Below, piece after piece: positions 16,717-23,597 of a DNA stretch of 32,403 nucleotides (position 1 is the first letter of the stretch; every line of letters starts with the position of its first letter). Made by a program: the position numbers and the translations under genes. The stretch is taken from the NCBI GenBank assembly GCA_026400425.1, contig JAPLPC010000482.1, positions 1 through 32,403 of the forward strand. Direction: 5' to 3'. The stretch comes from Hyphomicrobiales bacterium (GTDB taxonomy: Bacteria > Pseudomonadota > Alphaproteobacteria > Rhizobiales > Xanthobacteraceae). The notes below the pieces were generated by a model, which saw nothing but the letters and a program-made list of their open reading frames with translations, was not told where the DNA came from and made no database searches.

Positions 16717-17961
<1,245 letters not shown>

Positions 17962-20774: not shown

Positions 20775-21344
20775 TCAGGCCACCATCATGATGCGGCTGC
20801 GCAGCATGGTGCGGGAGGCGCGGCCAAGCTGGCGCAACAGTTTTGCTTCGGCACGGCCAGCATCGGCATGGCCGCCGAGACGCTCATAATGGTCCCGCGC
20901 AATCAGCAGGCCCTGGTCGGCTTTGGGGCCAGAGACCTTGCGGAGCAGATGTTTCACCCCGTCGCGAAAGCCGGTCTCGTCATAAGGCGAGCGCGCATAG
21001 CGAAAAATGCCGGCACGCGGTCGGTCGCTGGCGCCGACGCGCTGGATGAATTGCTGGGTCTCCTCGATCCAGCCGCTATCCAGCACAGCGCCGGCATGCA
21101 GGAACATCAGCCAGGGCGAGCGCGCGACCCGGGCCCCGGCAGCCATCGCCGCGGCGCGTGAGCCTCTGGACGTCAGAAAGCCGCAGCCGGCCACGTCTGC
21201 GACCCGCTCGATCACATCGGTGCCGGCACGATCCACCAGCAACACCTCGCGGATAACGCCGGCAGCCGCGCCCGGCACCAGCGCCGCCAGAGTGGCGACC
21301 GCGGGCTGTTCGACACCGTCGGTGGGAATGATCACGCTCAGCAT
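20775..21344 (-). CDS. Glycosyltransferase family 2-like protein
   Basis: 189 aa; MLSVIIPTDGVEQPAVATLAALVPGAAAGVIREVLLVDRAG...SRGSRAAAMAAGARVARSPWLMFLHAGAVL. Confidence 0.75.
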   Translation of the reverse strand: MLSVIIPTDGVEQPAVATLAALVPGAAAGVIREVLLVDRAGTDVIERVADVAGCGFLTSRGSRAAAMAAGARVARSPWLMFLHAGAVLDSGWIEETQQFIQRVGASDRPRAGIFRYARSPYDETGFRDGVKHLLRKVSGPKADQGLLIARDHYERLGGHADAGRAEAKLLRQLGRASRTMLRSRIMMVA

Positions 21345-21467: not shown

Positions 21468-21482
21468 GTTCTTGATATGTTC
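21468..21482 (+). promoter_or_regulatory. LexA (SOS) box
   Basis: GTTC-TTGATAT-GTTC, exact match to the alphaproteobacterial consensus GTTCN7GTTC, 23 nt before the ATG at 21506. Confidence 0.65.
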
Positions 21483-21505
21483 TGAAGAGGTGCTAGCCTA
21501 GCTGC

Positions 21506-22666
21506 ATGAATCAGAACGCCGCAGCCCTTCAGATGCCGACTGCTCCCGCGCCGTCCGAAATCGCGGGGGTGCCATCGCCGTTTCCGGCGATCGAGGTGGC
21601 GATCGACCGCCAGCGGCGGCGCGGGCGCGGCGCCCAGACCAATGACAGCGGCCGTTTCGAGAAAGAGGCGCGCGTCGTGTTCGACGACGGCTGGCAGAGC
21701 CTCGACGACCTGCCGCCATTCAAGACGACGGTGGCGGTGGACACGGCGCGGAAGGTCATCACCCGCAACGAGTCGCCGGATATCGGTTTCGACCGTTCGA
21801 TCAATCCCTATCGCGGCTGCGAGCATGGCTGCGTCTATTGTTTCGCGCGGCCGACCCACGCCTATCTCGGCCTGTCGCCGGGGCTGGATTTCGAATCCAA
21901 GCTGTTCGTGAAGCCCGACGCGCCGGCGCTGCTCGCCAAGGAACTGGCGGCGGCAGAATATGAGCCGAAGACGATCGCGATCGGCACCAATACCGATCCG
22001 TATCAGCCCATCGAGCGTGAACGCCAGATCATGCGCGGCATTCTCGAAGTGCTGGAAGCAGCGGGGCATCCCGTCGGCATCGTCACCAAGTCGGCGCTGG
22101 TGGTGCGCGATATCGATATCCTGGCGCGAATGGCGAAGCGCAATCTCGCCAAGGTGGCGCTGTCGGTGACATCGCTGGATCCGAAGCTGGCGCGCACCAT
22201 GGAGCCGCGGGCCTCGACGCCGCCGAAGCGGCTGGAGGCGCTGCGGCAGTTGTCGGAGGCCGGCATTCCGACCTCGGTGCTGGTCGCACCGGTGATCCCC
22301 GCGCTGAATGACAGCGAAATCGAGCGTATCCTCGATGCCGCCGCGCATGCCGGCGTGAAGGAAGCGAGTTACGTTCTGTTGCGCCTGCCACTGGAAGTGC
22401 GCGACCTGTTCCGCGAATGGCTGATGGCGAATTATCCGGATCGCTATCGTCACGTCTTTACGCTGATCCGCGAGATGCGGGGAGGTCGCGACTATGACTC
22501 GCAATGGGGCACGCGCATGAAGGGCACCGGGCCGATGGCCTGGATGATCGGCCGCCGCTTCGAGGTCGCCTGCGCCAAGCTCGGGCTCAACAAGAAGCGC
22601 GCGAAACTCACGCTCGAGCATTTCACGAAGCCGGCAGGCGCCGGCCAGCAACTGACTTTGTTCTAG
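21506..22666 (+). CDS. PA0069/Rv2578c-family radical SAM protein (SplB-like)
   Basis: Radical SAM YRGCEHGCVYCFARPTHAYLGLSPGLDFESKLFVK; GTNTDPYQPIERERQIMRGILEVL; C-terminus QQLTLF. Confidence 0.9.
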   Translation: MNQNAAALQMPTAPAPSEIAGVPSPFPAIEVAIDRQRRRGRGAQTNDSGRFEKEARVVFDDGWQSLDDLPPFKTTVAVDTARKVITRNESPDIGFDRSINPYRGCEHGCVYCFARPTHAYLGLSPGLDFESKLFVKPDAPALLAKELAAAEYEPKTIAIGTNTDPYQPIERERQIMRGILEVLEAAGHPVGIVTKSALVVRDIDILARMAKRNLAKVALSVTSLDPKLARTMEPRASTPPKRLEALRQLSEAGIPTSVLVAPVIPALNDSEIERILDAAAHAGVKEASYVLLRLPLEVRDLFREWLMANYPDRYRHVFTLIREMRGGRDYDSQWGTRMKGTGPMAWMIGRRFEVACAKLGLNKKRAKLTLEHFTKPAGAGQQLTLF

Positions 22667-22841: not shown

Positions 22842-23597
22842 ATGATTCGGGACAGCACCACCTCACCTGCGAAAAAAGCGACCAAACTGGCGGGTTCCAA
22901 GCCTCGCAAGTCGATCGTCGTGGCGGGAGCGCCCAGCTTCAAGCGCGAGCGGGCGCTGTTGAAGCAGGGGATCTGGCCGGTGGCGGGCTGCGACGAGGCC
23001 GGTCGCGGGCCGCTGGCGGGGCCTGTGGTGGCTGCCGCGGTGATCCTGGATCCCAAGCGGATTCCCAAAGGCCTCGACGATTCCAAGAAACTGACCGAAG
23101 CCCGGCGTGAGGCCTTGTTCGAGGAAATCTGCGCCACGTCGTCCTTTGCCGTCGCTTATGCGTCTCCGGCGCGCATCGATCGCGACAATATCCTGCGGGC
23201 CTCGCTGTGGTCGCTGGCGCGCGCCGTCGCTGCGCTGCCGCAAGCACCGCGGCATGTGTTCGTGGATGGCCGCGACAGGATCGAAACCGACGCGGTCTGC
23301 GAAGCCGTGATCGGCGGCGACGCGCTGGTGCTGTCCATCGCCGCGGCCTCGATCATCGCGAAAGTCTCACGCGATCGGCTGATGTGCCGGTTGGCCGAGC
23401 AATGCCCCGGCTACGGATTCGAGGTCCATAAGGGCTATGGCGTGCCGCAGCACCTCCAAGCGCTGACCGAACTCGGGCCCAGCATCCACCACCGCAGCCT
23501 GTTCGCCCCGGTGGTCGCAGCGCGGATCCGCCGCGAGGGGCCGGCACCGCAGGCCGAGATCGTCGAGATGCAAGCGAGCCTCGACCTGTCAGCCTGA
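22842..23597 (+). CDS. rnhB: Ribonuclease HII
   Basis: [55 protein letters not shown]. Confidence 0.95.

Follow-up and report, generated by a model that had tools for sequence, protein, structure and literature searches.

A conserved LexA-type box in the promoter region of a PA0069-family radical SAM gene of a Hyphomicrobiales bacterium

The locus and its LexA-type box

The analysed stretch of DNA, hereafter the window, comprises 32,403 nucleotides of the genome of a Hyphomicrobiales bacterium (contig JAPLPC010000482.1). The following features are relevant:

16717..17850, minus strand: CcrM-type adenine methyltransferase gene (Pfam N6_N4_Mtase and RAMA)
20775..21344, minus strand: small glycosyltransferase-like gene related to TIGR04283, divergent from the radical SAM gene
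21468..21482, plus strand: putative LexA operator GTTCTTGATATGTTC (GTTC-N7-GTTC), from exact match, orthologue conservation and matrix rank
21472..21477, plus strand: putative -35 element TTGATA within the spacer of the operator, from the sequence and the spacer consensus in orthologues
21491..21499, plus strand: putative extended -10 element TGCTAGCCT (TGnTAnnnT), 16 bp after TTGATA, from the sequence and a positional peak in orthologues
21506..22666, plus strand: PA0069-family SplB-like radical SAM gene, 386 aa, from NF033668, Pfam PF04055 and fold matches
22842..23597, plus strand: rnhB (Ribonuclease HII), downstream of the radical SAM gene

The divergent arrangement of the glycosyltransferase-like gene is present in 76 of 110 orthologous loci. 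The gene rnhB is on the same strand as the radical SAM gene in 90 of these 110 loci, with a varying gap, and might be partly transcribed from the SOS promoter. The protein encoded at 16717-17850 reached 610 bits with the Caulobacter CcrM model, under the cut-off of 830.

The original prediction described a perfect GTTCN7GTTC box 23 nt before the start codon, placed in a short divergent intergenic region, and estimated about one chance match per window. The box is an exact match. The 3' end of GTTCTTGATATGTTC is 23 nt from the ATG at 21506, and the divergent neighbour starts at 21344. GTTCN7GTTC occurs only once in the whole window, at this site. Shuffling of the window gave an expectation of 0.75 matches, in agreement with the estimate, and 54 of 100 shuffles contained at least one. 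A bare match is therefore without significance. As a direct repeat, GTTCTTGATATGTTC has the architecture of the alphaproteobacterial LexA operator, for which PMC3323433 defines the motif GTTC-N7-GTTC.

Conservation and promoter geometry

Orthologues were obtained from 60 relatives, 290 genomes of the class and 80 named genomes. Because of overlap between the samples and shared phylogeny, the following counts are not independent: a perfect GTTCN7GTTC was located upstream of all 50 sampled orthologues within the order, in 79 of 88 testable class members and in 76 of the 80 named genomes. The named genomes include Bradyrhizobium, Rhizobium, Agrobacterium, Mesorhizobium, Bosea, Bartonella and Stella. 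Seven more class members have a version with one mismatch, for example GTACTTGTTTTGTTC. The chance expectation for a perfect box is about 1% per promoter. In the named set, the 450 nt upstream of the gene had a motif density of 2.19 per kb, compared with 0.020 per kb in the remainder of these loci, a ratio of about 110. The box is on the strand of the gene in nearly all orthologues, and it stays while the flanking DNA varies between families. The operator is thus conserved upstream of orthologues, and the scan across Rhizobiales promoters that had been proposed as a check came out in its favour. One locus, L105, was counted as box-bearing, as its box GTTCCTTCTTTGTTC spans the tblastn start and is visible in L352 from the same genome.

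Two of the 88 class members (L174 and L176) have no recognisable box in register; lexA is kept in both genomes. Decay of the box to one mismatch is seen within a single genus of the order (GTTCCGTATTCGTTT in L353 of genome G118 and GTTCTCTATTTGTTT in L354 of genome G398), with lexA present. Loss of lexA as the cause of imperfect boxes was ruled out by its presence in 15 of 15 genomes checked.

The operator overlaps a putative promoter. The consensus around the box in 108 box-bearing promoters is wwTGTTCTTGwTTTGTTCt, with TTGwTTT as spacer, which places the -35 element between the GTTC halves. TAnnnT shows a sharp positional peak 26 and 27 nt from the box start, seen in 97 of 184 distinct promoters and corresponding to a -35/-10 spacer of 16-17 bp. 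In the window, the -10 hexamer is TAGCCT (21494-21499), with TG in front. A generic sigma-70 scan did not flag this promoter, so the promoter case rests on the geometry in orthologues. With the -35 element inside the operator spacer, LexA should directly block RNA polymerase.

The predicted transcription start, about 7 nt past the -10 element, coincides with the ATG. The form TGnTA was reported as the -10 element of leaderless mRNAs in Bradyrhizobium japonicum (PMC4842269). In the host genus, the mRNA is probably leaderless, as judged from these positions, with a start at or 1-2 bases from the ATG. Many other genera have the conserved coding start further away from the box.

The box in the host genome and in other proteobacteria

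The host genome encodes a full LexA as well as RecA, and both genes have like boxes upstream: GTTCCATATGTGTTC before lexA and GTTCGCAATATGTTC before recA. Among relatives including the host, boxes are upstream of lexA in 27 of 27 and of recA in 21 of 28 cases. Together with the orthologue conservation, these boxes support the predicted membership of the radical SAM gene in the SOS regulon. A weight matrix was built from 21 lexA and recA sites, which themselves score 14.7-24.6 bits. The window box scored 22.3 bits and ranked fourth among the distinct genome boxes listed; only 0.15% of boxes with random cores scored as high or higher. The bare motif is mildly enriched in the whole genome, with 128 occurrences versus 88 for the reversed control. 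When the core is required to be AT-rich (GTTCNNNWWWTGTTC), the motif has 21 occurrences versus 1 for the control, and dispersed repeats account for about 10 of these 21.

One type of dispersed repeat is about 450 nt long and has no obvious open reading frame (L084:1485-1960, L029, L085, L087, L088 and L091, on host contigs C339, C130, C371, C433, C485 and C565). It has 11 matches in the host, 2-24 in each of 11 other genomes of the same genus and none in the 7 genomes of other genera that were searched. The copies start with GTTCYYATTTTGTTC, which adjoins TTGACA, and end with a hairpin formed by CTCCCCTCATG and CGAGGGGAG. Its sequence suggests a multi-copy non-coding transcript under a promoter that contains a LexA-type box. 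A second repeat type has a like start (GTTCCACATTTGTTCTTGACA) and a different body (L081, L083 and L090 on C193, C235 and C548; L092 on C622). The pairing of box and TTGACA thus occurs with two different repeat bodies. An Rfam search with the box-bearing repeats yielded no match.

A scan of genome contigs retrieved essentially alphaproteobacteria only, and other classes were sampled by a phylum-wide search with the family model. This provided 40 pooled upstream regions of orthologues from classes other than Alphaproteobacteria. GTTCN7GTTC was present in none of the 40. A perfect CTGTN8ACAG, the enterobacterial-type LexA box, was present in 29 of them, where chance would give 0.0045 per region; most of these boxes are 35-105 nt ahead of the conserved start. 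In two members of one family, the gene is preceded by TTAGyAATAATACTAA, which we take to resemble the Xanthomonas LexA site. PA0069 itself is presumably part of the LexA regulon of P. aeruginosa. With GTTCN7GTTC in one class and CTGTN8ACAG elsewhere, the gene keeps LexA-type boxes while the box sequence changes.

These observations bear on three other explanations of the 15-mer. It could be a chance match of eight bases in a short intergenic region, as the shuffles and the mild genome-wide enrichment of the bare motif would allow. This is extremely unlikely given a box that is kept at nearly every sampled orthologue of the class and whose density there far exceeds that in the rest of these loci. 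The conserved block could also be a core promoter, with TTGwTT as the -35 element and the GTTC repeats serving RNA polymerase or another regulator instead of LexA. The register of TTGwTT with the TAnnnT -10 element fits this reading, and RNA polymerase alone could explain the conservation of the TTGwTTT spacer. It leaves the two GTTC halves unexplained, which are outside the -35 element and yet kept in nearly all orthologues. The same halves recur at lexA and recA with different spacers and on the opposite strand, and other classes put another LexA box before the same gene. We consider a role confined to the core promoter very improbable.

A third possibility is that the operator acts on the divergent glycosyltransferase-like gene to an equal or greater extent than on the radical SAM gene. 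That gene is kept in the majority of the orthologous loci, as given above, and LexA is able to act on both sides. However, strand and spacing of the box are fixed relative to the -10 element of the radical SAM gene, a distance of 123 nt separates the box from the start of the divergent gene, and the box is also found where no divergent homologue was detected, for example in L249-L252. Such a role is very unlikely. GTTCTTGATATGTTC is very probably a functional LexA operator that represses the SplB-like radical SAM gene until DNA damage occurs.

In an undamaged cell, LexA on the 15-mer would cover the -35 element TTGATA and keep the radical SAM gene off. After DNA damage, RecA would load on single-stranded DNA, LexA would cleave itself and the promoter would open. 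Transcription would start at or near the ATG and yield a leaderless mRNA. The SplB-like product would most likely reverse or process a DNA lesion within the SOS response.

The enzyme and its place in the SOS response

The assignment of the gene to the PA0069 family was correct: the protein reached 577 bits with NF033668 over model positions 1-348, and the curated cut-off is 360. A CX3CX2C cluster motif is located at residues 105-112, and C105, C109 and C112 are invariant in 81 sequences. The AlphaFold2 model has a mean pLDDT of 66.5, with good core strands and helices and a poor cluster-motif region. In a fold comparison with the PDB, the six best matches were all spore photoproduct lyase (E 6e-9 to 2e-8, TM-score 0.51-0.58, identity 16-17%). 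Searching the PDB by sequence gave no relevant relative, and no spore photoproduct lyase model was among the NCBIfam matches of the protein.

Spore photoproduct lyase repairs 5-thyminyl-5,6-dihydrothymine and uses a catalytic cysteine, Cys140/141, as H-atom donor. Fold and CX3CX2C motif are common to SplB (PDB 4fhc and mutants) and the protein of the window, but Cys140 is missing in the PA0069-family sequences compared. Beyond the three cluster ligands, no cysteine is conserved in the 81 sequences, so the donor cysteine has no counterpart. The window protein has no cysteine between residues 112 and 356. Identity as a spore photoproduct lyase is not supported with the donor cysteine missing. 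Nor is the enzyme a light-driven photolyase. An action like that of spore photoproduct lyase, with radical SAM chemistry and probably on DNA, is plausible from the modelled fold.

LexA control of splB was predicted in 2012 for alpha- and beta-Proteobacteria (PMC3323433). This prediction concerns the same kind of gene, the same GTTC-N7-GTTC motif and the same class as here, and that splB likely belongs to the PA0069 family. The set includes Agrobacterium, Brucella, Paracoccus, Rhodobacter and Sinorhizobium, with no mention of Bradyrhizobium. According to the same work, the SOS trait of splB was not seen in Gammaproteobacteria, LexA binding was assayed in Vibrio only, and the argument of a changing box was drawn from alpha- and beta-Proteobacteria. 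Bacteroidetes, Balneolaeota and Gram-positives also have SplB-like radical SAM genes in their SOS networks (PMC8565304, PMC7739468). There, too, a LexA box precedes the radical SAM gene; the comparison is at the level of SplB-like genes, and the LexA motifs differ from GTTCN7GTTC. The SOS link of the gene is well supported and mostly already known. New are the class-wide counts, the overlap with the -35 element, the lack of the donor cysteine and the finding of CTGTN8ACAG boxes before orthologues in other classes.

LexA control that is kept despite a changing target sequence would argue for a core SOS function. An enzyme like spore photoproduct lyase that lacks the donor cysteine, and whose LexA control extends over several classes, probably repairs a lesion not yet assigned to it. 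Evenly balanced, in our judgement, is the broader proposal that the PA0069 family is a widespread radical SAM enzyme of DNA repair under SOS control, distinct from spore photoproduct lyase and with another lesion as target, whose LexA control was kept across Proteobacteria through the change of box (GTTCN7GTTC, CTGTN8ACAG and perhaps TTAGN8CTAA). The question that would matter is the substrate of the enzyme. Judged from sequence comparison, an uncharacterised and widespread enzyme can be assigned to the SOS response with confidence, and its promoter is now testable.
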